Origin: Atribacterota bacterium
GTDB lineage: Bacteria > Atribacterota > Phoenicimicrobiia > Phoenicimicrobiales > Stramentimicrobiaceae
DNA length: 64,000 bases
Assembly (NCBI GenBank): GCA_028717805.1
Contig: JAQUNC010000006.1
Location: 1-64,000 of the forward strand
Reading direction: 5' to 3'
Of the stretch, positions 9,767 to 26,327 are shown piece by piece. The notes below the pieces were generated by a model, which saw only the letters and a program-made list of their open reading frames with translations, did no database searches and was not told where the DNA came from. The translations under genes and the position numbers were made by a program. The number at the start of each line of letters is the position of its first letter. Position 1 is the stretch's first letter.

Positions 9767-9842
9767 TTAATATTACTTTTTAAATTACTCTTAGGTATTG
9801 TTCTAATAACATAATTATTTTATTAATTTATTCTTATATAGC

Positions 9843-10847
9843 TTAATCGCTAATCAATTGATACTCTTTAATGATATTAACGATGCGAGCAGCTCTGTCA
9901 CTTTTTGGTGCTATCTCTTCATCCCAATATTTAAAAGTTAATTCCCGTAACTGATTCCATTCTTCTGCAGGAATTGTTGTTGTTTTAAAATGCTTTAGGC
10001 TCTCCATTTCTCCCTCATAATAATAAGCCATAAGTCTACCACGTAAATCGTTTAATCCTGTAGTTATAGCCTTCTGCTGACCTGGAGATAGCGAATTCCA
10101 TAATTTTTCATTCATAATCCAAGGATTAGTAAAAGCACCAGAAATAGGATTGGTTAAAAAATAGGGGCATACCTCATACCAGCTGTTTGTATATCCTTCA
10201 GTTGCACCTCCCCAAGCAATACCATCTATCATACCTGTCTCAGCTGACAAATATAAATCATCATATGTCAAGGTCACACTGGTAATGCCAACATCTTTAA
10301 AAATGCGGGCAACGTTTGGATCTCCACTTATTTTTAGTCCCTTAAGATCACTTATCGAATTTAATGGTTTCTTACTTATAATATTGAGCGGATCACAAAT
10401 AGTATGTCCCACAACAACAATTCCACCCAAGGCTGCCCATGATTCACTAACAACTTCCTTCATGCCTCTCATTTCCCATAGTGTCAAACACTCCATTGCG
10501 TTATCCCACGCAAAGGGAGGAGCAGATTCGAATGCCACTACATCAATTGGGGCGCCCATATGTGCTCCCATACATGTTGCCATATCAACAGCCCCTGCCT
10601 GAACCGCTGGGATTGTTTGTTGCATAGATGTTAATTCCCCTGCAGTATAAGCTTTAATCTGTAAACTACCCTTGTGAATTTCATTAAAATCTTCTTCCCA
10701 ATCTTTCAGTACATCACCATATTGCACTGGACCCCATAATGTTTGAGCTTTCAAAATCTTTTCCTGTGCCAATGTTAACATAGTTAAACATCCAAAAAAC
10801 AACATAGTTATTAATAGCAAAATCAATATTTTCTTATTAATATACAT
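9843..10847 (-). CDS. dctP: TRAP transporter substrate-binding protein (DctP)
   Basis: The 334-residue protein starts MYINKKILILLLITMLFF with a signal peptide ending about at LAQE, then the DctP fold (LWGPVQYGDVLKDW; VQAGAVDMATCMGAH; SDLKGLKISGDPNVARIF; the region after ISDLKGLK holds the usual ligand-binding stretch). The start at 10847 is chosen because GGAGG lies 7 nt upstream; an earlier ATG at 10886 has no such site and would put 13 polar residues before the signal. It is the first gene of the TRAP operon and has a long leader with a second GGAGG element. Confidence 0.92.
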   Translation of the reverse strand: MYINKKILILLLITMLFFGCLTMLTLAQEKILKAQTLWGPVQYGDVLKDWEEDFNEIHKGSLQIKAYTAGELTSMQQTIPAVQAGAVDMATCMGAHMGAPIDVVAFESAPPFAWDNAMECLTLWEMRGMKEVVSESWAALGGIVVVGHTICDPLNIISKKPLNSISDLKGLKISGDPNVARIFKDVGITSVTLTYDDLYLSAETGMIDGIAWGGATEGYTNSWYEVCPYFLTNPISGAFTNPWIMNEKLWNSLSPGQQKAITTGLNDLRGRLMAYYYEGEMESLKHFKTTTIPAEEWNQLRELTFKYWDEEIAPKSDRAARIVNIIKEYQLISD

Positions 10848-10957
10848 ATTAAAACCTCCAAATATTTTATTTATTGAAAATGTCATTCTTAATATTATGT
10901 ACTAGATAGTAAGAAAAATGCTAGTTTTAAAATTTACCACTTCCCTCTAAAGCAACA

Positions 10958-11175: not shown

Positions 11176-12474
11176 TTATCGATTAAATATCTGATTTCGG
11201 GATATTCCATCACTTAAATTTGATTCCTGCAAATTACTTGAATCTAAAAATAAAAGGGGCTGTTCAAAGGCTTCCCGGACATCTTCCATAAACTTAGCAG
11301 CAGTTAATCCATCAATAACTCTATGATCATAGGTAAAATAGTAGGTCAGGATGGGACTAATAACAATTTTGCCTTCACGAACTACGACTCTGTCTGAAAT
11401 ACCACCAGTCCCGAGAATCGCTGACTCCGGTTGGTTAATTATGGGGGTCTCAAAACGATATCCTGCTCCACTAAAGGATCCTAAATTAGTAACTGTAAAA
11501 GTACCACCGGTTACATCCCTAAGTTGTAGCTTTTCTTCTTTTGCTTTTTTTATAAGTTCTTTTAATTCTATACTTAAAGAAGGTAATGATTTTTTATCTA
11601 CATCCTTTATCACTGGAACAATTAAACCGTTTTCCAAAGATGTCGCAACTCCTATATTTATACTATCCCATAACTTGATCTCATTATCTATGAGACTAGC
11701 GTTGATAATTCGATGTTTCTTAAGTTGTTTTGCAACTAAATAAACGAATAAAACTGTATATGTAATCCTTGTGCCAATAATCTTTTCCTGTGCAAGCATA
11801 TTTTTACGTAACTTTGTCATCTCTGTCATGTCAATCTCCCCCATAAGTGTAAGCTGTGCAGAGACGGATAAGCTTCTAACCATGTGTTCGGCTATCTGTT
11901 TTCTCATTTGGTTAAGGGGTATTATTTCTCCTACTTTCCTCCCATCATATAAATCCAGAATTTCTTTCTGTCCATCCTTATCATGAATTAATTTCTCAAT
12001 ATCATTTTTTATTATAATTCCTTCTGGCCCTGTACCGCTGATAGATGTAATATCTATTCCGTATTTCTTAGCAATCCTACGTGCAGCTGGTGAAATTCTT
12101 AATCTTTCTTTATCTTCTAAAGAAGATGGGATCAAAGAGCTATCTTTTTTCGTTTCTCTTTCTATCTTGTTCTCACTTTTGGAAGGCGATTCAACTATTG
12201 CTTCAGTTATTTTTTTATTCTTAATTTGCTGATATTCTTCTAAGGTTTCAGCAACAATACCAATAACTGTCCCTATGGGAACTTCTTGTCCTTCGCTCAC
12301 TAAAATATGCACATATCCTGATATTTCTGCTTCTATAGTATAATTTATTTTTTCTGCTTCTATAGTTACAATTTCATTACCCGGTTTAACATGGTCTCCT
12401 TCTTTTATTATCCACTGAGCAACAAGAATAGGTGTGTTAGTCATTCCTCGTTTAGGTATTTTAATTTCTTTCAT
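11176..12474 (-). CDS. Dihydrolipoamide acyltransferase (E2) of a 2-oxoacid/acetoin dehydrogenase
   Basis: A 432-residue E2. Residues 1-77 form a lipoyl domain with lipoyl lysine K42 (EAEKINYTI), about 125-163 the E1/E3-binding domain (RISPAARRIAKKYGIDI), and the remainder the acyltransferase with the active-site motif DHRVIDG (H384). ATG at 12474 is preceded by GGAGA 7 nt away; a TTG two codons earlier is less likely. With the E1 alpha and beta genes upstream it makes a TPP-dependent complex that converts a 2-oxoacid or acetoin to acyl-CoA and NADH. No E3 gene is present in the window. The C-terminal 25 residues are a polar extension. Confidence 0.92.
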   Translation of the reverse strand: MKEIKIPKRGMTNTPILVAQWIIKEGDHVKPGNEIVTIEAEKINYTIEAEISGYVHILVSEGQEVPIGTVIGIVAETLEEYQQIKNKKITEAIVESPSKSENKIERETKKDSSLIPSSLEDKERLRISPAARRIAKKYGIDITSISGTGPEGIIIKNDIEKLIHDKDGQKEILDLYDGRKVGEIIPLNQMRKQIAEHMVRSLSVSAQLTLMGEIDMTEMTKLRKNMLAQEKIIGTRITYTVLFVYLVAKQLKKHRIINASLIDNEIKLWDSINIGVATSLENGLIVPVIKDVDKKSLPSLSIELKELIKKAKEEKLQLRDVTGGTFTVTNLGSFSGAGYRFETPIINQPESAILGTGGISDRVVVREGKIVISPILTYYFTYDHRVIDGLTAAKFMEDVREAFEQPLLFLDSSNLQESNLSDGISRNQIFNR

Positions 12475-12530
12475 TAACAACTCTCCTTTTATATGAATTT
12501 ATAACAATAGCTTAAATTATATTCTTTATC

Positions 12531-13346
12531 TTATATCGTTGAACCACCGTCAATACTCAAGGCTTCACCAGTAATATGATCAGAAACTGAAAGAAAAACT
12601 ACTGCTTCAGCCATATCTTCAACTGTCTGCAATGCTCCTTGAGGATAATTTGTCTTTACAATTCTATAAAAACTTTGCTTTTCGGTTTCACCATTTTTTG
12701 CAAGCTTTTGACTTATTTCATTCCACATTTGCGTTTCAACAACACCAGGACAAATTGCATTAACAGTTATTTTTTCCTTAGCAAGTTCTATTGCTAACGC
12801 CTTAGTAAAACCAATAACGCCCCATTTTGATGCACAATAATGTGATAATCCAATTTCTCCTTTTTTCCCAGATTCTGATGAAAAATTAATAATTTTACCC
12901 TTGCCTTGCTTCCTCATCTGAGCAACTACAGCTTTATTGGTTATATATGTTCCCTTTAAATTCACCTCAATAATATGATCCCAATCTTGGAGAGTGAGGT
13001 TCTCGATGAGTCTAAAAGATATTACTCCTGCACAATTTACTAGAATATCAACAGTACTAAAATTTTTTACTGTTTCATCAATCATCTTTTTTACTTGTTC
13101 TTCTTTTGTTACGTCTGCTTCTATTGCCAGCGCCCTAAAGCCTTTTTCTATCAAAAATTTAACAATTTTCTTTGCGGCTGTATATCCTCCAATGTTTTTA
13201 CTAAAATACTGGTTGCAATCTGATTTAACAATATCTACTCCCACAATTACAAGGTTGGCCCCTTCTCTTGCTAATCGCAGTGATACACCTTTACCAATCC
13301 CTGTTCCTCCTCCTGTTACTATGGCAGTTAAGTTCTTTAGTCTCAT
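12531..13346 (-). CDS. Short-chain dehydrogenase/reductase
   Basis: The 271-residue SDR has the NAD(P) motif TGGGTGIG (11-18), NCAG (104-107), and catalytic Ser156/157, Tyr170 and Lys174 (YCASK). The segment after the second beta strand (residues 40-68, DIVKSDCNQYFSKNIGGYTA) is an insertion compared with the commonest classical SDRs. It sits between the E1 beta and E2 genes. Acetoin/diacetyl reductase is a plausible role beside an acetoin-type dehydrogenase, but SDR specificity cannot be read from sequence. The start is an ATG behind a GGGGG site. Confidence 0.85.
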   Translation of the reverse strand: MRLKNLTAIVTGGGTGIGKGVSLRLAREGANLVIVGVDIVKSDCNQYFSKNIGGYTAAKKIVKFLIEKGFRALAIEADVTKEEQVKKMIDETVKNFSTVDILVNCAGVISFRLIENLTLQDWDHIIEVNLKGTYITNKAVVAQMRKQGKGKIINFSSESGKKGEIGLSHYCASKWGVIGFTKALAIELAKEKITVNAICPGVVETQMWNEISQKLAKNGETEKQSFYRIVKTNYPQGALQTVEDMAEAVVFLSVSDHITGEALSIDGGSTI

Positions 13347-13454
13347 TATCTAATCCCCCTTATACCAATAAATGTGAATTTCATCATAATACATAAATAT
13401 ATATTTAATAATTTTCAAAAATAAGGTACTGCATAGATAATATAGACTATATTC

Positions 13455-13509
13455 ATTTCATGATAGTTTCCACTCAATTTGTGAATATGAGAGAAAACTA
13501 TCATGAAAT
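13455..13509. repeat. 15-bp perfect inverted repeat with 25-nt loop
   Basis: ATTTCATGATAGTTT (13455-13469) is exactly complementary to 13495-13509. It lies in the 329-nt gap between the E1 beta and SDR genes. A second, weaker dyad, TGTTTTCT/AGAAAACA (13583-13617), with AATCGAG repeated inside, lies nearer E1 beta. Neither has a U-run. They may be an mRNA-processing or partial termination point dividing E1 from SDR-E2. I see no gene in this gap. Confidence 0.55.
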
Positions 13510-13675
13510 TAGGTAATAAAATGATCATATTGTTTTTAATTTTTCTATCTATACAATATATCAACCAAGCTCAATTAAAGATTGTTTTCTAATCGAGTTG
13601 CTAAAATCGAGAAAACAGAATATGAACTATAGTAATTAATATTCATCCAGACAACAAGTGTAATTTTATTATTTT

Positions 13676-14656
13676 TTATATTATTGAATGTATAGCCTCA
13701 ATAAGTTTGTTCTCATCTGGTAACCAGTATTTTTCAAGTGGCGGGCTAAATGGAATCGGGGTATTTGGTGCACACACTCTCTTAACTGGTGCATCAAGAT
13801 ATTCTATTGCTTGTTCAGCAATTATTGCCGCAATCTCACTAGCTGCACTTCCTATTTTTGGTTCTTCATCTAATATAACTATTTTCCCTGTTTTCTTAAC
13901 TGATTCAATTATTGTTTTCTCATCGAGTGGTGCCATACATCTTGGATCAACTACTTCTAAACTAATATTTTCTTGTTTGAGTTTACCTGCAGCAGAAAGT
14001 GCTGTATGAACCATATTTCCTATGGCAACAACAGTCACATCATCACCTTCATTCCTGATTACTGCTTCTCCTAGTGGAATAGTGTAATCATTTTCTGGAA
14101 CCTCACCTTTAAAACCACTAATAGTTAGAAATAAATTCTGGAAAAAAATAACAGGATTATCATCCCTAATTGCTGATTTTAATAACCCTTTAGCATCATA
14201 GGGAGTAGATGGTGAAACCATTTTTAATCCTGGTACACTCATTAACATTCCTTCTAAACAAACTGAATGCTGAGCTGCAGCATTCATCCCACCACCAGAA
14301 AGACACATAATTGTGACTGGCATCTTTGTTTTACCCCCGAACATATAACGCATCTTGGTAACTTGACTGAATATTTCATCCATAGGCACACCAAGAAAAC
14401 TAGCAAACATGACATTAGCTATTGGCCTCATACCGGTCATCGCAGCTCCAATGGCACATCCTAAAAATGCAGTTTCAGAGATAGGCGTTTCCCTAATTCT
14501 TTCTGCACCAAATTTTGGCCATAATCCTTCAAATTCTTTTACTGATCCCTGCCAGTGTTCTCCTATGTCTTCCCCCATAATAAATATGGATGGATCTCTT
14601 TCCATCTCTTCTTTTAGTGCTTCAATTATCGCTTCCCTATAAGTTAATATTCTCAT
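13676..14656 (-). CDS. 2-oxoacid/acetoin dehydrogenase E1 beta subunit
   Basis: The 326-residue protein has the transketolase-like pyrimidine-binding domain (about 1-175; FIMGEDIGEHWQGSVKEFEG, GERIRETPISETAFLGCAIGAA type motif) and the C-terminal domain (LEVVDPRCMAPLDEKTI; VILDEEP). It pairs with the E1 alpha gene 20 nt upstream. The close match in style is the AcoB/PdhB-like beta subunit of Gram-positive and clostridial acetoin dehydrogenases; pyruvate or branched-chain 2-oxoacid use is possible. ATG start behind a GGGGG site. Confidence 0.9.
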   Translation of the reverse strand: MRILTYREAIIEALKEEMERDPSIFIMGEDIGEHWQGSVKEFEGLWPKFGAERIRETPISETAFLGCAIGAAMTGMRPIANVMFASFLGVPMDEIFSQVTKMRYMFGGKTKMPVTIMCLSGGGMNAAAQHSVCLEGMLMSVPGLKMVSPSTPYDAKGLLKSAIRDDNPVIFFQNLFLTISGFKGEVPENDYTIPLGEAVIRNEGDDVTVVAIGNMVHTALSAAGKLKQENISLEVVDPRCMAPLDEKTIIESVKKTGKIVILDEEPKIGSAASEIAAIIAEQAIEYLDAPVKRVCAPNTPIPFSPPLEKYWLPDENKLIEAIHSII

Positions 14657-14676
14657 ATTATATATCCCCCTTTTTT

Positions 14677-15636
14677 TTAAGCATAAACATCTTCTAACGT
14701 TTCTTCAGGTTCCGGATATGGACTTTCTTTTGCAAATTTAACAGCTTCTTCCACCTCATTTTTCATTTTTTGATTAATTCTTTCAGCTTCTTTTTCAGTT
14801 AAAATACCATCCTTAATTAGTCGTCTTTTTAATAATTCAATTGGTTCTTTTTTTAACCATGCTTCAATCTCAGATTTCTTTTTATAGGTTTCCGTATCAC
14901 CCTCTTCATGACCAAAATGTCTATAGGTCTGAATTTCTATAAGTGATGGTCCTTTGCCCTTTCGAGCTCTATCTATTGCCTTTCCAACTTTTTCATATAT
15001 TTCCAATACATCATTGCTATCAATAGTTTCTCCTGGAATTCCATATGCAATAGCTCTATCAGAAAGTTTTTTTAATCTAGTGGAATAAAAAATACTGGTA
15101 GCCTCCGCATAAAAATTATTTTCAATAATAATTACAATGGGTAGGTCCCATATGGCAGCTAAATTAATTCCTTCATGAAATCTTCCAGTATTTGATGCAC
15201 CATCGCCAAGAAAACATAGAGTAACTTGGCCACTTTTTCTTAATTTTGCTGAAAGACCAGCACCGGTTGAAATTGTCACTGTGGAACCGACAATACCATG
15301 TGCACCCAACATATTAATATCCATATCAGCAAGGTGCATGGAACCACCTTTCCCCTTACAATAACCAGTCTTTTTCCCATATAATTCAGCCATCATAAAA
15401 TTAATATTGCCACCTTTAGCAATCAAATGACCATGACCTCGATGGTGGCTTACAATATAGTCATCTTCTCTAAGGTTTGTAATACATCCAACTGCAATAG
15501 CTTCCTGACCTGCAGATAAATGAATAAAACCAGGAATATCCCCATCAGCAAACGATTTTTTTACTCTTGTTTCAAACTGCCTTATCAAAACCATTTTACT
15601 AAACATATCTAAAAGTTGTTCTTTGTTGAGTTTCAT
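14677..15636 (-). CDS. 2-oxoacid/acetoin dehydrogenase E1 alpha subunit
   Basis: A 319-residue TPP enzyme. The TPP motif runs from G144-D-G to N173-N174 (FLGDGASNTGRFHEG ... IIENN), and SHHRGHGH marks the N-terminal active-site region. The start at 15636 follows AAGGAGG by 8 nt; an out-of-frame ATG lies between them and an in-frame ATG 13 codons upstream has no site. E1 alpha decarboxylates the 2-oxoacid (or cleaves acetoin) on TPP and passes the acyl group to E2. Its 300-nt leader carries an extra GAAAGGAGG. Confidence 0.9.
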   Translation of the reverse strand: MKLNKEQLLDMFSKMVLIRQFETRVKKSFADGDIPGFIHLSAGQEAIAVGCITNLREDDYIVSHHRGHGHLIAKGGNINFMMAELYGKKTGYCKGKGGSMHLADMDINMLGAHGIVGSTVTISTGAGLSAKLRKSGQVTLCFLGDGASNTGRFHEGINLAAIWDLPIVIIIENNFYAEATSIFYSTRLKKLSDRAIAYGIPGETIDSNDVLEIYEKVGKAIDRARKGKGPSLIEIQTYRHFGHEEGDTETYKKKSEIEAWLKKEPIELLKRRLIKDGILTEKEAERINQKMKNEVEEAVKFAKESPYPEPEETLEDVYA

Positions 15637-15731
15637 ACATTTTGCCTCCTTAATATTCTTAGATAAAATAATCATTATTTTGCTATTTTTGACTCATAAT
15701 ACTATAATAAATTTTTATCGTATAAGTTTTA

Positions 15732-15792: not shown

Positions 15793-15843
15793 TATAGCTA
15801 ATACAGAGAAAAAATTTGAAATTTTTTCTCTGTATTAGCTATA
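15793..15843. terminator. 25-bp perfect hairpin with 1-nt loop
   Basis: Positions 15793-15817 and 15819-15843 are exact reverse complements around a single G. Each arm ends at the centre in A/T runs (AAAAAATTT). On the minus strand it lies 95 nt after the stop of the ABC binding-protein gene and before the E1 alpha leader, so it most likely ends or protects the transport operon's transcript. Because it is symmetric it would also act in the other direction. Confidence 0.75.
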
Positions 15844-15937: not shown

Positions 15938-17455
15938 TTAAAAATCTTTTAATTTAGGTATTTTGTTCTTTATTTCCTCAGCAGCTTTATCGAGAGCAAC
16001 CTTTGGTTCATATTGCCCGACAAGACATCCATTTATGTATCTTGCTAAAATATCATCAATAACTACAGCTTCAGGAAATCTTGGCTGGTCAAAGGCTGCC
16101 GGAAATAATTCACCTGTTAAGGGATCTGGTGTTTCAGCATACTCTTTAGGTAAACCCCATGCACTTCCTGGTTCTCTAAAAGCTTTTTTACCATCAAGCT
16201 CTAAAATTCTGGCATGGGTAATAAAATAGTGTGATGGTGCATAAGTAAGTTTATAAACTTTAGGATCTTGATATGCCGAATCAGATAAAGAGATACTCCC
16301 ATTAGCCATTATTTCAGCCTGAACCTCTTTACGTTGGGTCCATTGCAAGAAAAGCCAAGCAGCTTCTTTATTTTTAGATGCTGATGGTATACACAAAGCC
16401 CAACCATTTAAATTGGTAGTTTTACGAGCAGCAATTGGCATACCACTATAAGCAACCTTTCCCACAACCCTCGATTGAGAAGGGTCTTCACTAATAGCAT
16501 AGCAGGCATCTGCCCATAATAAAGTCTGCACAGCAAGCCCAGACTGCATAGCTGCTAATTGTTCATCCCAAGTGTAAGTATCGCTTCCAGGAGGACAGAA
16601 ATTATCATACAAATCTTTATAGTAAATTAGGGCTCTTATTGCTTCTTCTGAGTTGATTACAACTGGCCCATAATCAAATCCTGTTGGTGCATCAATTATT
16701 TTTCCATTAAAGGCAGATAAAACATTTTTAAAATTAAATACAGTGGCAATATGCCTTTTACCACATAATGTAATTCCATATACATCATGATCCAGAATTT
16801 CATCTGCTAATTTTTCTCCCTTTTTCCTAGTAAAGAATTCAGATAAATCCCTTAGTTGATCCATGTTGATTGCTGGAACCGGTAATTCATAACCATATTT
16901 AGCTTTAAACTTTTCTCTCTCTTCTGGATGTTCAAAAAGATCAACTCTCCAATCATAGATCAGGGTATGAAAAGAGAATGGTAAGCCATATAACTTACCT
17001 TTATACTCAAAATTACCATTTAACCACTCTAGATTACTAATATCCATTCCGATATAAAAATTGGGACTTGTAATTTTTTTGTTATCTATAAAAGTTTCTA
17101 CCGGTTCTAACCAACCATTTTCCGCATCTCTAGATACAGTACTATTGCTAGTCATAGTTATATCATAAATACCTGTTCCTGCTACATAGTCAGCTATAGC
17201 CTTTTCGTCTGCTTCATCCATGGCAAACATTTCAAATTCTACTTTTATACCGGTAAGTTCTGTAAACTCTACTGACTTCTGCTTTAAAGCATCTAGGGGG
17301 GGTAAGGCTTCTCCAATCATATGTAATGTTACCCCTTTATAAGGTTTTGCCGCTTCTACCAGCCATTCATCTTCTGGATTTTGAGCACTAGAAGACAAAG
17401 TAAACAATAAAAAAGATACAATTAAAAATAGAGTAATAATATTAACTTTTTTCAT
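15938..17455 (-). CDS. ABC transporter solute-binding protein, family 1 (GlpV-like position)
   Basis: This 505-residue exported protein has a signal peptide (MKKVNIITLFLIVSFLLFTL, cleavage near SSAQN) and the carbohydrate-type family 1 fold, with GIYDITMTSNSTV and GKLYGLPFSFHTLIYDWR in the N-lobe and NGWALCIPSASKNKEAAWLF in the C-lobe. It is longer than maltose-type proteins (about 400). It closes a six-gene importer cluster: permease, permease, small membrane protein, ATPase, ATPase, binding protein. That set matches the rhizobial glycerol system GlpSTPQUV, so a small polyol or related ligand is a reasonable but unproven guess. Confidence 0.88.
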   Translation of the reverse strand: MKKVNIITLFLIVSFLLFTLSSSAQNPEDEWLVEAAKPYKGVTLHMIGEALPPLDALKQKSVEFTELTGIKVEFEMFAMDEADEKAIADYVAGTGIYDITMTSNSTVSRDAENGWLEPVETFIDNKKITSPNFYIGMDISNLEWLNGNFEYKGKLYGLPFSFHTLIYDWRVDLFEHPEEREKFKAKYGYELPVPAINMDQLRDLSEFFTRKKGEKLADEILDHDVYGITLCGKRHIATVFNFKNVLSAFNGKIIDAPTGFDYGPVVINSEEAIRALIYYKDLYDNFCPPGSDTYTWDEQLAAMQSGLAVQTLLWADACYAISEDPSQSRVVGKVAYSGMPIAARKTTNLNGWALCIPSASKNKEAAWLFLQWTQRKEVQAEIMANGSISLSDSAYQDPKVYKLTYAPSHYFITHARILELDGKKAFREPGSAWGLPKEYAETPDPLTGELFPAAFDQPRFPEAVVIDDILARYINGCLVGQYEPKVALDKAAEEIKNKIPKLKDF

Positions 17456-17586
17456 TTTTTTCTCCTTTTATTTAGATTAAAATTAAACAGATAATTTTCA
17501 CTTTAAATTATGAGTATATTTCTACAATGTTAATCAAGCTTACTATTTTTTAGAAAAAAAATAAATATTTTTTAATATTTATCTCA

Positions 17587-17592
17587 CCTCCC
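17587..17592 (-). promoter_or_regulatory. Extra GGGAGG (AAAAAGGGAGGTG) in binding-protein leader
   Basis: A ribosome-binding-like sequence lies 131 nt before the start at 17455, with no gene between. It is a less exact member of the set at 10958, 15732, 31133 and 55025. The 200-nt gap otherwise shows only A/T-rich sequence. Confidence 0.35.
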
Positions 17593-17654
17593 TTTTTAAA
17601 GCAACTGCATTAAAAAAGTCAATTTTATGCCCTATTTCTATTTTTTCATAAGTT

Positions 17655-18773
17655 TTATGGCCATATTCTTTTTTCTGTACCTTCATCAAATATAAGTATA
17701 TTATCCATATTAAAATGTAAATTAACTTTCTTATTAATTTTTACGTCAAGCTCTTGATCTGATTTGATTTTAAAAGAAAATCCATTTAATTTTATTGAGT
17801 AGATAAAGCTATCACCAAAATATTCAATCAATTTAATTTCCCCAATACCAATATTTGAATATTTATTTATATCTACTTCTCTTATTATGGAAATATCAAT
17901 TGGTCTAATTCCCACAATTACCTGAGATCCTATATTTTTTGTACATAATTGTTCTTTAGCATTATCAGGTAAAACCAGAGGCGTTCCATTTATATTGATT
18001 AGTATATTCTCATCTTTAGAATACAATTCTCCTGGAAAGGTATTTATTGCAGGTTCACCAAATAATCTGGCAACAAATAAATTATTAGGGTATTTATAAA
18101 TTTTTTCAGGAGTATCTAATTGCTGTAAAATACCATGATTAATAATTGCAATTCTATCCCCTAAAGCAACGGCTTCAAGCTGATCAGGGGTTGCATATAG
18201 GGTTGTTATTCTTTTTTGTCTTTGAAATCCTTTTAAAATAGCTCTAGTTAAATGCTTTAGCTTTGCATCTAAATGAGCAATTGCTTCATCAAGAAGGTAA
18301 ACTTCGGGCTTTCTAATTAATGCTCTAGCTAAAGCAACCCTTTGTCTTTGACCTCCTGAAAGCTGGGTAATACTCCTGTTAAGCAGCTCTTTTATTTGAA
18401 ATTGAATTGCTATTTCATTCACAAGCATATCAATTTCCTCTTTGGAAAATTTATCTTTTCTTATAGGAGACTTCAATGAAAAACAAATATTTTCATATAC
18501 ATTTAAATGTGGATATAATGAGTAATTTTCAAAGGCATAAGCAATGTTTCTATGTCTTGGCTCAACATTATTGATAACTTTATCATTAAGATATATAAAA
18601 CCTTTTGTTGGTTCCTCTAAGCCTGCTATTAAATTCATAATTGTTGTTTTTCCAGCACCGGAAGGTCCTAGAATAACGAAAAATTCACCATCATTACACG
18701 TAAAAGTTAAATCATTAATTACATTATTTTCCCCAAATGTTTTGGTAACTTCTTCTAACATAATTTTGGCCAT
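17655..18773 (-). CDS. ABC importer ATPase with degenerate catalytic motifs (GlpT/S-like)
   Basis: A MalK-type ATPase of about 372 residues with a C-terminal TOBE region. In the numbering from the upstream GTG (18785), Walker A is GPSGAGKTT (40-48), signature LSGGQ (142-146), Walker B VYLLDE (162-167). However the Q-loop residue is Glu (AFENYSL), the motif after Walker B is DEA not DEP, and the switch-loop histidine is Pro200 (YATPDQ). It therefore probably binds but poorly hydrolyses ATP and works as the passive half of a heterodimer with the ATPase upstream. The ATG at 18773 fits family starts; GTG at 18785 is the alternative, and both overlap the previous gene. Confidence 0.85.
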   Translation of the reverse strand: MAKIMLEEVTKTFGENNVINDLTFTCNDGEFFVILGPSGAGKTTIMNLIAGLEEPTKGFIYLNDKVINNVEPRHRNIAYAFENYSLYPHLNVYENICFSLKSPIRKDKFSKEEIDMLVNEIAIQFQIKELLNRSITQLSGGQRQRVALARALIRKPEVYLLDEAIAHLDAKLKHLTRAILKGFQRQKRITTLYATPDQLEAVALGDRIAIINHGILQQLDTPEKIYKYPNNLFVARLFGEPAINTFPGELYSKDENILININGTPLVLPDNAKEQLCTKNIGSQVIVGIRPIDISIIREVDINKYSNIGIGEIKLIEYFGDSFIYSIKLNGFSFKIKSDQELDVKINKKVNLHFNMDNILIFDEGTEKRIWP

Positions 18774-18777
18774 TTTT

Positions 18778-19902
18778 TTAAACACTCACATTTCTATTCA
18801 GATTTATTCCAGTATTCTGATCAAAAAGATGAATATTATCTTCAATAAATTTTAAATATATCTTAGTATTTAACTCTGGCTTAAATGTTCCATCGGTTTT
18901 CACTAGAAGGTAAAAATCTCCTATTTTAACATTAATAACAAACTTTCCTTCGGACCTAGGTTCTATAAAATTAACTTCACCTTCAATTGTATTATCCTCT
19001 TTATTGGTGTTAAAACACCTAATATCCCCAGGTCTAATACCGAGCTTTACAATCTTTTTCCCATTCAAACTACTGTTATATTTTTTAAATACTGAAGCAT
19101 ATTTTTCAGGAAAATTTATTTTTTTACTAAATACTTCTAACTTTAAAAAATTATTTTCAGTTAATATTGAGGCATTTAATAAATTCATAGGGGGTTCGCC
19201 AATAAACCCAGCTACAAATTCGTTTACTGGATTACCATAACACTCTTTTGGTGTTCCTACTTGTTGAATTTTCCCAAAATTCATTATACAGATCCTCTCT
19301 GCCATGCTCATAGCTTCTGCCTGATCATGAGTCACATAAATTGTTGTAACTTTTAAATCATTATGTATACGTAATAATTCTGTTCTCATAGATTCCTTCA
19401 ATTTTGCTTCTAGATGAGATATTGGTTCATCTAAGAGAAATACCGCTGGTCTCCTTATTAATGCTCTTGCTACTCCTACTCTTTGTTGTTGACCACCGCT
19501 TAAAAATCTAACATTGTTATTTAATATATCAGTAAGTTGCATGAATTTTGCAATCTCTTTGACTCGCTTATCAATTTCTTCTGAAGGAATTTTTCTGATT
19601 TTTAAGGGAAAGGCAATATTTTTGTACACATTTAAATGAGTATAGAGAGCATAATTTTCAAAAGCTAGTGCAATATTACGTTCGGCAGGAGGAAGATCGG
19701 TTACCCTAATATCATCGAAATAAATATCTCCCTTTGTTATCTCTTCTAGACCAGCAATCATTCTTAAAGTGGAAGATTTGCCACAACCAGATGGTCCTAA
19801 TAAAGCAAAGAACTCTTTGTCTTTTATTTCAAGATTAAGATCTTCAACCGCATTAACATCTCCATATTTCTTACATAAATTTTTTAATATTACCTTTGGC
19901 AC
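18778..19902 (-). CDS. ABC importer ATPase (active partner, GlpS/T-like)
   Basis: A 374-residue MalK-type ATPase: Walker A GPSGCGKSS (36-44), signature LSGGQ (134-138), Walker B with catalytic E159 (FLLDEP) and an intact switch histidine H192 (YVTHDQ). Like its partner it has Glu in place of the Q-loop Gln (E82, AFENYAL). TOBE-like C-terminal part. It starts with GTG at 19902, with GAGGAG 8 nt upstream inside the preceding small gene, which it overlaps by 32 nt. Two non-identical ATPases in one importer are typical of the rhizobial glycerol transporter. Confidence 0.9.
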   Translation of the reverse strand: MPKVILKNLCKKYGDVNAVEDLNLEIKDKEFFALLGPSGCGKSSTLRMIAGLEEITKGDIYFDDIRVTDLPPAERNIALAFENYALYTHLNVYKNIAFPLKIRKIPSEEIDKRVKEIAKFMQLTDILNNNVRFLSGGQQQRVGVARALIRRPAVFLLDEPISHLEAKLKESMRTELLRIHNDLKVTTIYVTHDQAEAMSMAERICIMNFGKIQQVGTPKECYGNPVNEFVAGFIGEPPMNLLNASILTENNFLKLEVFSKKINFPEKYASVFKKYNSSLNGKKIVKLGIRPGDIRCFNTNKEDNTIEGEVNFIEPRSEGKFVINVKIGDFYLLVKTDGTFKPELNTKIYLKFIEDNIHLFDQNTGINLNRNVSV

Positions 19903-20092
19903 CTTCTATCTCCTCTGTTTTTCTTAAATTAGATCTTCTGTATTTATATCTTGAAATTATGTAAATAATTACGATGCTTGAAACAATCCAGGCACCCCAC
20001 AAAGGAATGAAAGATTCAAAAAACTTTAACCAAAACAAAATAATGAGTATAGGACATAGTATTGAATAAAAAACAACATCTCCAAATTCCAT
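19871..20092 (-). CDS. Small two-helix membrane protein of the ABC importer (GlpU/DUF2160-like position)
   Basis: A 73-residue protein with two hydrophobic stretches (about 5-22 and 30-46) and a basic, charged tail (SRYKYRRSNLRKTEE). ATG with AGGAGG 8 nt upstream. It sits between the second permease and the first ATPase, as the small integral membrane protein GlpU (DUF2160) does in glycerol ABC operons. I assign it by position and topology, not by a recognised motif. Confidence 0.65.
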   Translation of the reverse strand: MEFGDVVFYSILCPILIILFWLKFFESFIPLWGAWIVSSIVIIYIISRYKYRRSNLRKTEEIEGAKGNIKKFM

Positions 20093-20126
20093 AAATACTG
20101 CCTCCTATTTTACTAAACATGATTTA

Positions 20127-20984
20127 TTAACCTTTTACTGCTCCTAAAGTTAATCCCTGTACTAAATAACGTTGTAAGAATACAGCCATTAATATTACTG
20201 GAATAGCAACAACAGCAGAAACTGCGCAGAGTTGCCCCCAGTAAGTTCCTAAGGCAGTTACCAGACCTGGGAATGCTGAAGGTAATGTTCTTGCTGCCCT
20301 TCCTCCCAATATCAAGGCAAATAAAAATTCATTCCAGGAATAAATAAAAGCTAGAAATGCAGTAGATGCTATTGCAGGTTTAGCAATAGGCAAAATAACC
20401 TTGGTAAAGACTTGCCATTCTGAATAACCATCTACTAACGCTGCCCGATCAATTTCTTTAGGAATCGCATCAAATAAGCTCTTCATTAGATAAATTACCA
20501 GAGCTAAGTTAAATGTTGTGTGAGCTAAAATAACACCAGGAATTGTCCCCAAAATATTTAAGTTTTTAAACCAAATATAGAGAGGTAGCGCTACTGCAAC
20601 ACCTGGACACATTCTGGTAGTTAATATATAAAAATACAGATGTTTCGCTCCTAATATATAATAGCGAGAAAAGGAATAAGCAGCTGGAACTCCTGTAATT
20701 AAGCATAATATAACATTAGCAATACCAATAATTAAAGAATTCCTTAAATAGATTGAAAATCCTCCAGATGAACCAAAAGCATCCTTGAAATTAGCTAGTG
20801 TGGGCTTAAAAAATAAACTTATGGTGGGACTCATAATATCCATCCTATCTTTAAAAGCAGACATGACAATCCATAAAAATGGTATAACGCTTATCAAGGC
20901 TACTATAATAACTAATATAGTTCCTATGATATTTATTAATTTAAGATTTTTTTTATTATTTTTTTTCTGCTTTTTAGTAGTCAT
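20127..20984 (-). CDS. ABC importer permease (MalG/CUT1 type)
   Basis: A 285-residue inner-membrane protein with six predicted helices and the EAA loop AALVDGYSEWQVFTKVILP, which docks on an ATPase. The start is ATG 20984 after GAGGTG (6 nt); the longer frame to 20993 lacks a site. It forms the translocation pore with the permease encoded just upstream (20-nt overlap-free gap). Confidence 0.9.
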   Translation of the reverse strand: MTTKKQKKNNKKNLKLINIIGTILVIIVALISVIPFLWIVMSAFKDRMDIMSPTISLFFKPTLANFKDAFGSSGGFSIYLRNSLIIGIANVILCLITGVPAAYSFSRYYILGAKHLYFYILTTRMCPGVAVALPLYIWFKNLNILGTIPGVILAHTTFNLALVIYLMKSLFDAIPKEIDRAALVDGYSEWQVFTKVILPIAKPAIASTAFLAFIYSWNEFLFALILGGRAARTLPSAFPGLVTALGTYWGQLCAVSAVVAIPVILMAVFLQRYLVQGLTLGAVKG

Positions 20985-21019
20985 AAATATCACCTCGTTT
21001 ATTATAAACCTATCTTCTT

Positions 21020-21940
21020 CTATTGCATGGCTTCATTTTTAGAAGTAACCATTTTAACAAAAATCAAACATACTAAAAAACTTACAATGTATAAAAGCAT
21101 GACCACAGCAGATCCATATCCTAAATTCCAATATTTAAAATTTATTTTATATGCAAAAAAATTTGAATTCTCTGTTGTACTACCAGGTCCTCCTCCCGTC
21201 ATGATAAGTATAGTATCAAATATTTTAAATAAATCAGTAAACCTCAAGAGTATGGCAATAACAAAAATTGGTTTCAATAATGGTAATTTAATATTCCAAA
21301 GAGTTTGCCAGGAAGATGCGCCATCAACTGCAGCTGCCTCAAATGGTTCTTTGGGTAAAGATAATAAACCAGCGGTAAAAATCAAGATAATAAATGGGGT
21401 ATATTGCCAAATATCAATTGCCATAATAGTAAAAGGGGCTAGTTTAGGATTTCCTAGAATGGAACCCTTTATAATACCTAAATTTCTTAAAGTAATTCCA
21501 ATTAAACCAAAATCAGGATTTAAAGTTAAATGTCCAATAAGCCCAACAACTATTGGAGAAATGATCATGGGAATAAGTATAATTGGTAAAGTCCACTTTT
21601 TAAGTGTCATCTGTGATGATAGACATAAAGATACTAGAAATCCCAACAAAAATTCAATTGGTAGGCAGATTAATATTATTTTGGCAGTCAACCAAATACT
21701 ATCAATAAACTCAGAATCATGTAATGCTGTTCTATAATTATCCAAACCTATATATTCCCCGGTAGCAGAAGGATCTATATAATTTATATTTCTAAAACTA
21801 TAGCTACCCATTATTAACCAGGGTATTAAAGATACCAATATCAATAAAATTATTGTTGGCCAGAACCATTTGTATCCTTTCCATGAAGCTTTTCTAAGAC
21901 CAAAACCTATTTGGGCGTCATTTATATATCGATCACTCAA
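21020..21940 (-). CDS. ABC importer permease (MalF/CUT1 type)
   Basis: A 306-residue permease with an EAA loop (AAAVDGASSWQTLWNIKLP). It starts with TTG at 21940, seven nt after AGGAGG, reading MSDRYINDAQ. First gene of the importer cluster; the 145-nt gap to the CoA-transferase upstream could hold a promoter but none is convincing. Confidence 0.9.
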   Translation of the reverse strand: MSDRYINDAQIGFGLRKASWKGYKWFWPTIILLILVSLIPWLIMGSYSFRNINYIDPSATGEYIGLDNYRTALHDSEFIDSIWLTAKIILICLPIEFLLGFLVSLCLSSQMTLKKWTLPIILIPMIISPIVVGLIGHLTLNPDFGLIGITLRNLGIIKGSILGNPKLAPFTIMAIDIWQYTPFIILIFTAGLLSLPKEPFEAAAVDGASSWQTLWNIKLPLLKPIFVIAILLRFTDLFKIFDTILIMTGGGPGSTTENSNFFAYKINFKYWNLGYGSAVVMLLYIVSFLVCLIFVKMVTSKNEAMQ

Positions 21941-22085: not shown

Positions 22086-23273
22086 TCAAATTACCTTCTT
22101 TATTCTCAGCTCTTTTATCTCCTCTTCAGACATTCCCAAGATTTTTTTCAACACTTCTTCAGTATGTTCTCCCATCATCGGAGCAGGATTGATTGAATTA
22201 TTATCATTTTTTGATAGTCTAATAGGAGAGTTTGCAACCAATACCTTTCCTGCTTTGGGATGGTTCATCTCTACTAACATATTTCTCAATTTAATATTGG
22301 GATCCTGGACAATTTTATCTATTGTATTAACTTCAGCAGATGGAACTCCAGCTTTAGTCAATAATTCCACTATTTCTCTGGAAGATTTTTTCTTAGTCCA
22401 AGTTGTTAAAAGGGAATTTAATTGTTTGGAGTTCTTACTACGGTTATCATTAGTGATATAAAGCGGATTATTGATTAATTCTTCCATATTAATAGCCTTA
22501 CAAAGCTTTTCCCAGAGAGCATCGTTTCCTGCTCCAATTACCACCCATCCATCATTCGTTTCATAGGCATCATAGGGAGCTATAGAAGCATGTCCATTAC
22601 CAAGGCGTGTGGCTATTTCACCAGTAGCAGTATAGCGGACTACTGCGTTTTCTAATACTGAGAAGACTGAGTCCACCATGCTAATATCAATATATTGACC
22701 TTCTTTTATAATATTCCTATGGTGTAGTGCGGCTAAGATACCAATGGTAGCGAAGGAACCCGAAAAGATATCTGCAACAGACGTCCCTACCCGAGTTGGA
22801 GGCCCATCAGGATAACCTGTAATTGACATAATACCCCCAATAGATTGAGCTATGGTATCATATCCAGCTCTTTGCTGATCAAAACTATAATGCCCAAAAC
22901 AACAGATTGAGGCATAAATAACCAGTGGATTTATTTTCTTTAATACCTCATAATCCAAATTCAACTTTTCCATTGTATTAGCCCGATAATTTTCAGTAAT
23001 TACATCAGCCTTTTTCACTAGTTTTTTAAATATTTCTTTACCCTCTTCCTGTTTCAAATCCAAAGTGACACTTTTTTTATTACGATTGACACTCATAAAA
23101 TAGGCACTTTCACCATTAATAAAAGGACCAAAATAGCGAGAATCATCTCCAATTCCTGGTCTTTCAATCTTAATAACTTCGGCTCCTAAATCAGCAAGCT
23201 GCATGGTGCAGGTAGGCATGGCTAATACATGACTTAAATCTATGACTCTAATTCCTTCTAATGGTTTCCTCAT
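22086..23273 (-). CDS. Family III (CaiB/BaiF) CoA-transferase
   Basis: A complete 395-residue enzyme with VIDLSHVLAMPTCTMQLADL at the N-terminus, catalytic D168 (TSVADIF) and the usual C-terminal end (MMGEHTEEVLKKILG). It is a clear paralogue of the partial gene at 1-1102 (shared NRNKKS.TLDLK and SIGGIMS-like blocks). It follows the second AOR gene by 51 nt. A sensible chain is alcohol to aldehyde (iron ADH), aldehyde to acid (AOR), acid to acyl-CoA (this enzyme), but substrates are unknown. Confidence 0.92.
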   Translation of the reverse strand: MRKPLEGIRVIDLSHVLAMPTCTMQLADLGAEVIKIERPGIGDDSRYFGPFINGESAYFMSVNRNKKSVTLDLKQEEGKEIFKKLVKKADVITENYRANTMEKLNLDYEVLKKINPLVIYASICCFGHYSFDQQRAGYDTIAQSIGGIMSITGYPDGPPTRVGTSVADIFSGSFATIGILAALHHRNIIKEGQYIDISMVDSVFSVLENAVVRYTATGEIATRLGNGHASIAPYDAYETNDGWVVIGAGNDALWEKLCKAINMEELINNPLYITNDNRSKNSKQLNSLLTTWTKKKSSREIVELLTKAGVPSAEVNTIDKIVQDPNIKLRNMLVEMNHPKAGKVLVANSPIRLSKNDNNSINPAPMMGEHTEEVLKKILGMSEEEIKELRIKKVI

Positions 23274-23324
23274 TATAACTTTATATCCTTTCTATTACAT
23301 AATTGATAGTGATGATGATGTTGA

Positions 23325-25148
23325 TTAAATGGTAGAGAGTCCAAGTTCTTTTATCTTATCCACTTTTGGGACGCCACTATCATCCCATTCTCTAATCTGA
23401 TAATATTCTTTCAACATTAGATCTAATTCAGGTAATACACCAGCTGCTAAGCCATCATTTCTAGTAAGATGTAACAACCGTGAGGGAATGGTATCATCTT
23501 TTCTAGTAATACCCAGTTCTACATTATATAAGCGTTTAAGATTATGCAACCTTTGCCCAATTATCATTAATTCTTTTTGATCCATATCCCATCCGGTGAC
23601 TCTATTAATCCATTCACAGACAATTTTAGGTCCAATCCTACCAGCAAGCAGGAATTTACAGAGACCAAGCGCATTAAACACATTCATGTAATCCTGTAGC
23701 TTTACCACTAAATCAGCTTTACCTTCACTACTATGTGGATCTAACTTGTGTTGTTCATCAAATCCTAGCTCGGGTGCTGGTATACCAGACTCAATCATAT
23801 AACTTAATGATTCAAGATGGCATCCTCCACGATTAGCCGTAGCATAACTTAAGGCCATACCGGTATAAGCACGTGGATCATGCATGGGAATTTCTAAACC
23901 TTTTGTATGAATAGCGTAATTTGAGCTGTTATCCTTGAGTTGATATGATAAAGCCTTTACTCCCTGCCCGATAAGTTTTCCTAACTTTTCATTCTTAGCT
24001 ACCTGATGGGTAATCTTAATAAAAGCTTCTGGATTTGACCACCTTAATTCTATTGCATGTAAGTCTCTCTTTTTTAAAAGACCTTTTTCATAAGCCTCAA
24101 TAGCAAAAGCAATGGTCACACCCAGTGATATGGTGTCAATACCATAGCGATTACAGAGATCATTCATAAGTACAATGCTATTTAGATCTTCGTTTAGCAA
24201 ATTTGAACCAAAAGCACTAAAGGTTTCATACTCTGGACCATGTATTATTTCTTTATTAAAATTTACTTCCTTACCGCAAGAAATGGGACAGGCAAAGCAA
24301 GCATAATGTTTTTTAAAAATAGTATTAGCAATGATTTGTCCGGTGGTTTTACCAGCTCCTTCCCAACGGCTTTGAGCAAAGTTTTTAATAGGTAAATCAC
24401 CGGTATATTCTCTTGCTTCAACTGAACCACCAGTCCCAAAATCATGTAAACCTTGGGTATATTTTCGAACAGATGGAGTTGCTTCCTGTATAATCCTCGT
24501 CAATCCTTCTTTATCATTTATATCAATAGATTTTTTCTCCATCTTTACTGCAATAGCTTTAAGATTCTTTGATCCCATTACTGCTCCTAAACCACCTCTA
24601 CCAGCTAGACGTGAATGTGGGGCATCAATTACAATTGACGAAATAGAAATCATCTTTTCCCCTGCTTGTCCAATGGAAGCAATCTGTACCTGGGGATAAA
24701 TTTTTTTAATATTCTTTGAGGTTTCATAGGTATCTAATCCCCATAATTGACGGGCATCTTCAAAAGTTACTCCATCTTTATCAATCAGAAGATATATTGG
24801 ATGAATCGCTCTGCCTTTAATAACTATACCTCCATAACCATTCTTCTTTAAGGTTGCTCCCCAATGACCGCCAACTATTGCCTCATTCCATATGCCAGTA
24901 AGAGGGGAACGTCCGCAGATAGAGGTTTTGCTAGCCGTTGGAATGGGAATACCTGTCAAGAGACCAGGGAAGAAAAGGAGAGGATTATCAGGATGTAAAG
25001 GTGGGATATTTAAATCTAAATGTTGATAGAGATATTTGGCAGCAATACCACTACCACCCAAATATTTTCTCCATTCATTTTCATTTAATTCAAGTTCATG
25101 AAAATGTTGCTCAGTCAAATCTATTTCTAATATTCTTCTGCTTATCAT
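23325..25148 (-). CDS. aor: Tungsten aldehyde:ferredoxin oxidoreductase, second copy
   Basis: The 607-residue protein has the full AOR layout: YLGGSGIAAKYLYQHL, GRGGLGAVMGSKNLKAIAV, cluster cysteines C284, C287, C291 (CX2CX3C) and C497 (GLCKFL), and TANRGGCHLESL. The start is ATG 25148 with GGAGA 5 nt upstream. It is clearly diverged from the AOR at 5667-7544. It lies 21 nt after an iron alcohol dehydrogenase, so its likely substrate is the aldehyde made there. It has no MoaD-like neighbour. Confidence 0.93.
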   Translation of the reverse strand: MISRRILEIDLTEQHFHELELNENEWRKYLGGSGIAAKYLYQHLDLNIPPLHPDNPLLFFPGLLTGIPIPTASKTSICGRSPLTGIWNEAIVGGHWGATLKKNGYGGIVIKGRAIHPIYLLIDKDGVTFEDARQLWGLDTYETSKNIKKIYPQVQIASIGQAGEKMISISSIVIDAPHSRLAGRGGLGAVMGSKNLKAIAVKMEKKSIDINDKEGLTRIIQEATPSVRKYTQGLHDFGTGGSVEAREYTGDLPIKNFAQSRWEGAGKTTGQIIANTIFKKHYACFACPISCGKEVNFNKEIIHGPEYETFSAFGSNLLNEDLNSIVLMNDLCNRYGIDTISLGVTIAFAIEAYEKGLLKKRDLHAIELRWSNPEAFIKITHQVAKNEKLGKLIGQGVKALSYQLKDNSSNYAIHTKGLEIPMHDPRAYTGMALSYATANRGGCHLESLSYMIESGIPAPELGFDEQHKLDPHSSEGKADLVVKLQDYMNVFNALGLCKFLLAGRIGPKIVCEWINRVTGWDMDQKELMIIGQRLHNLKRLYNVELGITRKDDTIPSRLLHLTRNDGLAAGVLPELDLMLKEYYQIREWDDSGVPKVDKIKELGLSTI

Positions 25149-25169
25149 AATTATCTCCAATGCGCAAAA

Positions 25170-26327
25170 TTAAAAAGATTTTTCATATATTTTTATAATA
25201 TCTTCCTTGGAGGGTTTTCGTGCTGTATTATAGGGACTACCGCTGGCTAGTGCATCAGTAGCCATTTTATCCAGTCGTTTCATAAAGGTATTTTTATCTA
25301 TACCCAAACCTGAAATACTAGGGATCTCAACGTCTTCACATAACTTTTTAATTAATATTAAACCTTCTTTGGCAAAGTCAAGATCTGATAGATTACTATC
25401 TTTCACTCCCATTGCCTTTGCTATATTTGCAAACCTCTCTGGCAAGCCCATAATTGCATATTCCAAACAAGCAGGTAGAAGCACTGCATTTGATATACCA
25501 TGTGGTATATGAAACAATGCTCCCAGTGGGCGCGACATTCCATGAACAATAGTAACAGAAGAATTATTAAAAGCCATACCAGCTTCCATAGCCGCAAGCA
25601 TCATCTCACTTCTAGCTTCTTCATCATCACCATTAGCCCATGCTCTTCTTAAATACTTGGAAATTCTCTTGATTGATGACAAGGCGAAATTATCTGCCAA
25701 AGGCTGGTGACGTCTTGATGTATAAGCTTCAATTGCATGTGTTAATGCATCAATTCCTGTGGCAGCAGTAATGTTTGGAGGGACTGACATAGTGAGAGCA
25801 GGATCGTTAATGGCTATTTTTGGAATTAAATACTCACTTCCGATAAGCATTTTCACATCTTTTTTTGTATCAGTTATTATAGTAAACTGAGTAACTTCAG
25901 AACCAGTGCCAGAGGTAGTAGGAATTGCCACTATGGGAGGTCCATTTTGTTTCACTTTTCCTAGCCCCATATAATCCTGAATCTCACCTGGGTTGCTCAC
26001 CATAAGACTGATAGCTTTGGCTGTATCTATAGGACTTCCACCACCCAGAGCAATTACAAAATCACAATAGTTCTCTTTAAAAAGATTTGTTCCTTTTTCT
26101 ACATAATAATCGGTAGGTTCAGTATTGACTTCGTTAAATAAAGATATTTCAAGCTTTTGTTTTTTCATATAATTAACTACTCTGTCAGCATAACCTATAT
26201 CAGTCATGATTTTATCTGTAATTACTAATGGCTTATTGCCTATCTTCGCTAATTTGTCACAAGCACCTTCTAATGTTCCTAAACCATAATAGATCATTTG
26301 TGGAATTAAAAATCTATAACTGTCCAT
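25170..26327 (-). CDS. Iron-containing alcohol dehydrogenase
   Basis: A 385-residue group III dehydrogenase: NAD motif GGGSPIDTAKA (95-105) and metal ligands D193, H197, H262 and H276 (HGMSRPLGALFHIPHGISN), spaced as in the lactaldehyde reductase family. It interconverts an alcohol and an aldehyde with NAD(H). ATG start behind GAGGAGG. It leads a cluster with AOR and a CoA-transferase and lies next to an IclR regulator. Confidence 0.92.
   Translation of the reverse strand: MDSYRFLIPQMIYYGLGTLEGACDKLAKIGNKPLVITDKIMTDIGYADRVVNYMKKQKLEISLFNEVNTEPTDYYVEKGTNLFKENYCDFVIALGGGSPIDTAKAISLMVSNPGEIQDYMGLGKVKQNGPPIVAIPTTSGTGSEVTQFTIITDTKKDVKMLIGSEYLIPKIAINDPALTMSVPPNITAATGIDALTHAIEAYTSRRHQPLADNFALSSIKRISKYLRRAWANGDDEEARSEMMLAAMEAGMAFNNSSVTIVHGMSRPLGALFHIPHGISNAVLLPACLEYAIMGLPERFANIAKAMGVKDSNLSDLDFAKEGLILIKKLCEDVEIPSISGLGIDKNTFMKRLDKMATDALASGSPYNTARKPSKEDIIKIYEKSF

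Follow-up and report, generated by a model that had tools for sequence, protein, structure and literature searches.

The six genes at positions 15,938 to 21,940 of a 64,000-nucleotide stretch of the Atribacterota bacterium contig JAQUNC010000006.1 (assembly GCA_028717805.1; the whole stretch is referred to as the window) probably encode a binding-protein-dependent CUT1/MalK-type ATP-binding cassette (ABC) importer of the GlpST lineage, in which two unequal ATPases would most likely form an obligate heterodimer with one normal and one degenerate ATP site, and which would take up a small polyol or diol. With less assurance, we favor extending this proposal to the whole class of polyol importers that have two ATPases, to which the rhizobial glycerol importer GlpSTPQUV belongs. 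These importers may have a built-in dead or slow ATP site, reached more than once, and may be the importer counterpart of degenerate-site exporters, the split of the losses between the two subunits forcing heterodimer formation. The analysis shows which genes are present, the states of their motifs, the ATPase phylogeny, and the homology of the small protein; from these we infer the obligate heterodimer, the activities of its sites, and the cargo. The single-ATPase MalK/UgpC type of CUT1 importer does not describe this operon, in which there are two unequal ATPases, one of them without the switch histidine.

Motifs of the two ATPases and the proposed composite sites

All six open reading frames were confirmed on the minus strand, in the order transmembrane permeases TMD1 and TMD2, small protein, nucleotide-binding ATPases NBD1 and NBD2, and binding protein. 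Their extents and Pfam families agree with the composition proposed in the initial annotation of the window, namely two permeases, a 73-residue membrane protein, two unequal MalK-like ATPases, and a 505-residue binding protein. NBD2 has Pro200 (codon CCT, 18186-18188) at the switch position, as that annotation had claimed; this proline is known from one draft sequence and could reflect a base error, though proline recurs at this position in other ATPases of the same role. NBD1 retains the switch residue His192 (19327-19329). The Q-loop reads FENY in both proteins, which confirms the glutamate previously noticed there; it is not special to this operon, as both ATPases have it in 24 of the 37 oriented pairs of the window's phylum (see below). 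Walker A, the LSGGQ signature, and the Walker B Asp-Glu are undamaged in NBD1 and NBD2 alike. The D-loop of NBD1 (SHLEA), overlooked earlier, has Glu165 (19408-19410) instead of Asp. The window variant combines the loss of His in NBD2 with an intact signature and an Asp-to-Glu D-loop change in the partner NBD1.

According to a passage of a published review (PMC7756269), each site of an ABC dimer combines the Walker A, Walker B, and Q- and H-loops contributed by one subunit with the signature contributed by its partner. Since each site is composite in this way, the losses described here would damage one site and leave the other: the ATPase without His (S role) retains the signature needed by the site of its partner (T role), and the partner retains His. 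In the window, the normal site would be formed by the Walker A/B motifs and His of NBD1 together with the NBD2 signature. The second site would be built of the NBD2 Walker A/B motifs without the switch His, the NBD1 signature, and the altered D-loop, and would bind ATP with slow hydrolysis or none. Each cycle would then consume a single ATP, with the other clamping the dimer; the 73-residue protein would probably be placed with the permeases. Again in a passage of PMC7756269, the TM288 D-loop is described as extending to the nucleotide in the degenerate site, and the D-loop of NBD1 would accordingly face the NBD2 site; of all the links in the proposal, this one is the weakest. The initial annotation spoke of one catalytically degenerate ATPase. 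While the loss of His was confirmed, the description is better reworded as one degenerate composite site built by both subunits, which is not peculiar to this operon.

Distribution of the losses in two-ATPase pairs

Our survey covered the window and 42 stretches from its phylum (L035, L036, L087-L126), 66 genome-scan loci, 60 further stretches, and 3 plasmid stretches. The fetched material included 35 stretches around match places, picked mostly for two side-by-side matches, 46 of 94 places (39 full-length and 7 short), and 6 of 10 places. Among the 247 matches to the MalK model (13 of them, with scores below 155, were left unaligned) we found 87 pairs of adjacent ATPases, of which 83 could be oriented by the H-loop: the ATPase with an H-loop other than HDQ was assigned as S and that with HDQ as T. 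In the four unoriented pairs (L117-L120) both H-loops are HDQ, and one ATPase has the signature LSAGQ or LSTGE. A profile search of 14 stretches (6.7-19.9 kb; L021-L034) around the best whole-genome relatives of the binding protein revealed no MalK-like ATPase, apart from one 93-bit frame at the far end of L021.

The switch His is lost in S in 59 of the 83 pairs, and the signature core SGG is lost in T in 63 but in S in only one. The two losses coincide in 51 pairs, where they always affect the same composite site, the one formed by the Walker motifs and H-loop of S and the signature of T. In no pair are both H-loops altered, and Walker A and the Asp-Glu are undamaged in all 166 proteins. The single-ATPase MalK-like controls, five of which come from the window's own genome, retain His, SGG, the Q-loop Gln, and the D-loop Asp in 42/42 cases and HDQ in 41/42. 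Of the 60 single ATPases, 15 had been excluded for length, score, or missing signature; one, L088, is at a contig end and lacks His. Another three (L089, L288, and L121) were excluded because they belong to pairs truncated at contig ends, a choice made after their motifs were known; when they are restored, His and SGG are kept in 45/45 and the Q-loop Gln in 42/45.

The 83 pairs comprise 44 of GlpST type, one for each full-length DUF2160 locus examined, and 39 others (37 from the window's phylum, L182, and L212). In all 44 GlpST-type pairs S lacks His, and T has lost the signature core and has the D-loop TVIDP. The S switch residue of the 37 phylum pairs is His in 23, Pro in 9, and Thr in 5, while the T signature core is lost in 19, with another change in 15 of the remaining 18. 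Besides the window, proline at the switch occurs in the S-role ATPases of L092, L097, L098, L100, L102, L114-L116, and L182.

Phylogeny of the ATPases

A tree of 25 dereplicated pairs, 20 singles (one of the 21 dereplicated singles was omitted), and two other ATPases was calculated with the motif columns removed, by a quick search with branch support from the Shimodaira-Hasegawa-like approximate likelihood ratio test (SH-aLRT). GlpS and NBD2 fall in one branch of 24 rows (support 95), which contains 22 of the 25 S rows and the unpaired L288 and L121; L121 is close to a contig end and has a partial partner frame, while L288 starts 508 bases from a contig end. This grouping and the relation of the small protein to DUF2160 (see below) uphold the previously proposed kinship to the rhizobial glycerol importer; the proposed asymmetry of the ATPase pair is likewise supported.

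The S rows of L095, L114, and L115 lie outside the 24-row branch. A tree in which all S-role ATPases were forced into a single clade was rejected (p 7e-5, two trees compared), and because of this rejection we dropped a single origin of the asymmetry. The asymmetric design seems, as judged from these sequences, to have arisen more than once. The tree requires at least five changes between His kept and lost and at least four changes of the signature core, one of them in the S row of L212. Support is weak on 29 of the 69 inner branches, and when the coupling of the His and signature losses was examined on the tree by a sign test, no more than two supported independent contrasts were available, too few to be informative. 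Six loci of the second S group have a small membrane protein of a non-DUF2160 family; members of this other family (69-81 aa) were seen in the two-ATPase operons L097, L098, L114, L116, L093, and L095. The L097 protein has no Pfam match, and its family shows no link to DUF2160-like proteins.

Several observations weigh against the proposed asymmetric importer and the class to which we assign it. The NBD1 signature is canonical, so that the second mark of the degenerate site, usual in relatives, is missing in the window, and the D-loop Glu is found in the window pair alone among the 83. NBD1 belongs to a 97-supported group of 10 T rows whose tie to GlpT is weak, with single ATPases in between. 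The 23 of 37 phylum S ATPases that keep His do not have the expected loss, and in the Bacillus pair L212 the signature change (LSNGQ) is, exceptionally, in the ATPase with the altered H-loop. As to the survey itself, the His of T follows from the orientation rule, only the signature counts and the tree being independent of it, and many of the 83 pairs are close relatives; Fisher tests on them count kin pairs as independent and were not relied on.

An explanation that retains an appreciable, though minor, share of probability is that the asymmetry is neutral: with two different ATPases one site would suffice, and the other would drift without benefit. The variety of His losses (Pro, Thr, Ser), the many signature variants, and the same 23 His-bearing S ATPases fit such drift. 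However, drift alone should have also hit Walker A and the catalytic Glu, which are kept in all 83 S ATPases, and the losses are partitioned alike across S ATPases not confined to a single clade. It is improbable that NBD2 is merely redundant, decaying, and nearing loss, with transport driven by NBD1 homodimers: NBD2 lacks the switch His and has no close ortholog among the matches listed for 40 relatives, of which 4 share its genus (the best-scoring match is 43% identical and shorter ones up to 50%, as compared to 39% and up to 41% for the binding protein, so conservation of the NBD2 gene itself cannot be shown), but nothing is damaged in its frame, its Walker A, its Walker B Asp-Glu, or its LSGGQ, Pro recurs at the switch in the distant systems listed above, and in GlpST the partner has lost its signature, which would leave a homodimer of GlpT without any normal site.

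The small membrane protein and DUF2160

In a Pfam search, the 73-residue protein matched DUF2160 (PF09928) below the curated threshold (E = 0.0043, 17.8 bits vs. a cut-off of 28). For a profile built of this protein and nine similar proteins from other two-ATPase operons of its phylum, the hhalign probability was 96.5% against 13 full-length DUF2160/GlpU proteins, 97.9% against nine short DUF2160 proteins, and 0.2 against a different small-membrane-protein family that served as the control. The window protein corresponds to the C-terminal half of DUF2160, including the GD-x-x-F motif. By these profile comparisons it is a short relative of DUF2160/GlpU, and the relationship proposed in the initial annotation was thus found, so that the refutation which that annotation envisaged, with a small protein unrelated to DUF2160, does not hold.

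The Pfam DUF2160 search of the window's genome gave nothing at E 0.001, and the window gene appeared (0.0145) when E up to 0.1 was allowed. Weak matches of this kind (E up to 0.1) are present in 24 of 50 genomes of the window's phylum, none of which has a match above the cut-off, and matches above it are present in 85 of 398 genomes of the phylum of a Rhizobium genome. The full-length DUF2160 loci fetched from Pseudomonadota encode two ATPases in 44/44 cases. In contrast, the short DUF2160 loci of Pseudomonadota (L274-L281 and L294) have one MalK-like ATPase in 9/9 and no pair; its H-loop is HDQ in 9/9 and its signature LSGGQ in 8/9 (one was not read). As the latter loci have one ATPase each, the window's phylum was the only one in which we encountered two unequal ATPases together with a short DUF2160.

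Layout of the operon and neighboring genes

Coordinates of the operon and of the adjacent features are given in Table 1. The genome is a draft of 92 contigs, and its completeness is taken as 96.85%. The frame of NBD2 agrees with that previously annotated (17655-18773) except for its start, 18773 corresponding to an internal Met. The Pfam model OB_MalK scores above its cut-off in NBD2 and not in NBD1, and no NCBIfam model scores above cut-off for the ATPases, permeases, or binding protein of the operon.

Table 1. Features of the importer operon and its surroundings in the window
Feature	Position	Strand	Basis
Permease TMD1, GlpP-like	21020..21940	-	PF00528; 29% to GlpP of pRL9 over 291 aa
Permease TMD2, GlpQ-like	20127..20993	-	PF00528; 33% to GlpQ over 251 aa; 41% to phylum system L094
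Small membrane protein, 73 aa, predicted short form of DUF2160/GlpU	19871..20092	-	Pfam and profile-profile comparison
ATPase NBD1, T role; switch His and LSGGQ kept; Q-loop Glu; D-loop Asp to Glu	18778..19902	-	PF00005
ATPase NBD2, S role; LSGGQ intact; switch His to Pro; Q-loop Glu; Walker B LLDEA	17655..18785	-	PF00005
Substrate-binding protein, 505 aa	15938..17455	-	PF01547/PF13416
Inverted repeat (perfect, 20 bp; short AT-rich tail) in the interval separating the binding-protein gene from the E1 genes	15795..15841		Sequence
Downstream genes: E1 alpha (14677-15675), E1 beta (13676-14656), short-chain dehydrogenase/reductase (SDR; 12531-13346), E2 (11176-12480)	11176..15675	-	Pfam, NCBIfam, and solved-structure searches
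Upstream genes: CoA-transferase III (22086-23273), aldehyde:ferredoxin oxidoreductase (AOR; 23325-25160), iron-type alcohol dehydrogenase (ADH; 25170-26327)	22086..26327	-	Pfam

The predicted products of the downstream E1 and E2 genes resemble those of 2-oxoacid or acetoin dehydrogenases, their specificity being unproven. The inverted repeat, whose half-site has no other copy in the window, may form a hairpin that separates two transcription units. Farther along the same strand (5667-10886) the window also contains a second aldehyde:ferredoxin oxidoreductase gene (5667-7544) and genes of a TRAP transporter (DctM, DctQ, and DctP; 7749-10886).

Binding protein and possible cargo

The initial annotation proposed a glycerol-type importer of a polyol or alcohol-like compound feeding the adjacent ADH-AOR-CoA-transferase genes. 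The downstream E1-E1-SDR-E2 genes, not used in that proposal, are a clue to the cargo that is at least as suggestive. The predicted structure of the binding protein (mean predicted local distance difference test score, pLDDT, of 83.6) has 5iai as its best solved match (Z 40.6). Among the best 50 rows of the fold search, Z ranges from 33 to 41 without separating sugar binders from polyol binders, and oligosaccharide binders come close behind 5iai. The fold is therefore no guide to the cargo, which we take to be, probably, a polyol or diol of small size.

Our first guess, unproven and tentative, is acetoin or 2,3-butanediol: the importer would feed an acetoin dehydrogenase complex, and the acetaldehyde would pass on to AOR or ADH. 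The E1 alpha, E1 beta, SDR, and E2 genes are directly downstream of the transporter on the same strand, an E3-like gene (31% identity) is present elsewhere in the genome, and the best solved relative of the SDR is named a putative acetoin(diacetyl) reductase (215.6 vs. 168.7 bits for the next). E1 alpha shares 50.8% identity with a protein whose gene adjoins lpdA and a gene for a sigma-54-dependent regulator on an Enterococcus plasmid, and AcoR-type sigma-54 regulators control acetoin genes. Against such a cargo, E1 beta scores above the cut-off of the NCBIfam pyruvate dehydrogenase E1 beta subfamily (338.9 vs. 321), and for E1 alpha the best solved match is human pyruvate dehydrogenase and the best NCBIfam model, below cut-off, is also pyruvate dehydrogenase. 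With the SDR, the 3-hydroxybutyrate dehydrogenase model scores 207 bits vs. 191 for acetoin reductase, all below cut-off. Moreover, another E1 relative adjoins a sorbitol phosphotransferase system, the inverted repeat lies between the transporter and E1 genes, and our literature search for acetoin or butanediol importers gave no ABC importer among the matches listed.

Glycerol itself is an unlikely cargo, and we consider a plain glycerol importer improbable despite the same six parts as in glpSTPQUV and the S-lineage ATPase. The best FGGY kinase of the genome is xylulokinase-like and reaches 182 bits on the glycerol kinase model vs. a cut-off of 590, so no GlpK-grade kinase was found, and at the completeness given above the genome has no Dak1 match. 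Neither glpK nor glpD is among the Pfam-scanned neighbors in the window; no genome-wide search was made for glpD. The supposed closeness of the binding protein to GlpV did not hold: the two are 24.6% identical over 402 aa, GlpV lacks any Pfam match at E 0.01, in contrast to the PF01547 match of the window protein, and a Rhizobium etli protein of a one-ATPase DUF2160 operon, the best plasmid-borne match, is closer (29.7% and 30.1% in two comparisons; 30% over 511 aa).

Significance of the asymmetry

It has long been asked if an ABC importer needs both of its ATP sites to fire, and discussion of degenerate sites has mainly concerned exporters. The point of interest is the wider asymmetry of the two-ATPase class. 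GlpST belongs to a genetically tractable rhizobial importer in which one site is apparently crippled naturally in all 44 full-length DUF2160 loci fetched, and related systems are at intermediate stages, with His kept or lost and the signature kept or lost. For these reasons the question is directly testable. Our literature searches on asymmetry, GlpST, and DUF2160 gave, among the matches listed, no title or abstract opening that describes asymmetric GlpST ATPases; most subscription papers were outside their scope. Treating such ATPases as interchangeable copies of MalK/UgpC may be misleading.

Comparison with known systems

Plasmid pRL9 of R. johnstonii 3841 (record positions 74196-83365) has annotated genes for glpD, two ATPases, two permeases, DUF2160, a binding protein, and glpK, which agrees with the earlier statement that the rhizobial glycerol importer has the same parts. 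We named GlpS, GlpT, and the other pRL9 proteins by gene order after the relevant part of PMC7912956, where the uptake of glycerol by a glpSTPQUV-type operon is cited from the work of Ding 2012 on VF39. The rhizobial pair, which served as the model for the initial annotation, is itself asymmetric: GlpS of pRL9 has LSGGQ and YATTEP (Thr for His), while GlpT has LTADQ and YVTHDQ. Like the window, GlpSTPQUV comprises two permeases, a small DUF2160 protein, two unequal ATPases, and a large binding protein, with a GlpS-lineage ATPase without His and another with His. It differs in its full-length DUF2160, the degenerate GlpT signature (intact in NBD1 and degenerate in 44/44 of the fetched GlpST pairs), the Q-loop Gln, and the linked glpD and glpK, as opposed to the short DUF2160, Q-loop Glu, lack of a GlpK-grade kinase, and distant binding protein of the window system.

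The DUF2160 operon of R. etli p42e (L127) shares with the window a short DUF2160 (68 aa), adjoining dehydrogenases, and a related binding protein, but encodes one canonical ATPase of UgpC type. Within the window's phylum, L094, which has the best TMD2 match (41%), has the same part list, a short DUF2160-like protein, and Q-loop Glu in both ATPases. Unlike the window operon, it adjoins genes for an FGGY kinase, an RpiB-family isomerase, Dak1, and Dak2, its S keeps His (HDY), and its T signature is LSGGH. Of two relatives from the same order, L035 has a two-ATPase importer near bacterial microcompartment shell, EutN-like, RnfC-like, and fused E1 genes, and L036 has one near an aldehyde dehydrogenase gene. 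As the neighbors of the importer genes differ in this way between L094 and L035, the cargo appears to vary across the class.

Among more distant systems, the heterodimeric exporters TM287/288 and TAP are described in a passage of PMC7756269 as having one consensus and one degenerate composite site; by contrast, the window and GlpST pairs belong to importers that keep the catalytic Glu in both subunits and have lost the switch His. The importer ATPases RbsA and NupO, termed type II in a section of PMC11466899, have one degenerate site in a single fused chain; unlike the window pair, they have lost Walker A (NupO also Walker B). DppD and DppF, for which PMC12136057 gives a supplementary alignment with ATPases of both consensus and degenerate-site type, are likewise two different ATPases of one importer, but of another importer family. 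As far as sequences can tell, the S-role ATPase and part list relate the window system to GlpST, of which it is a variant with a short DUF2160, a partner signature left intact, and Glu at the Q-loop.

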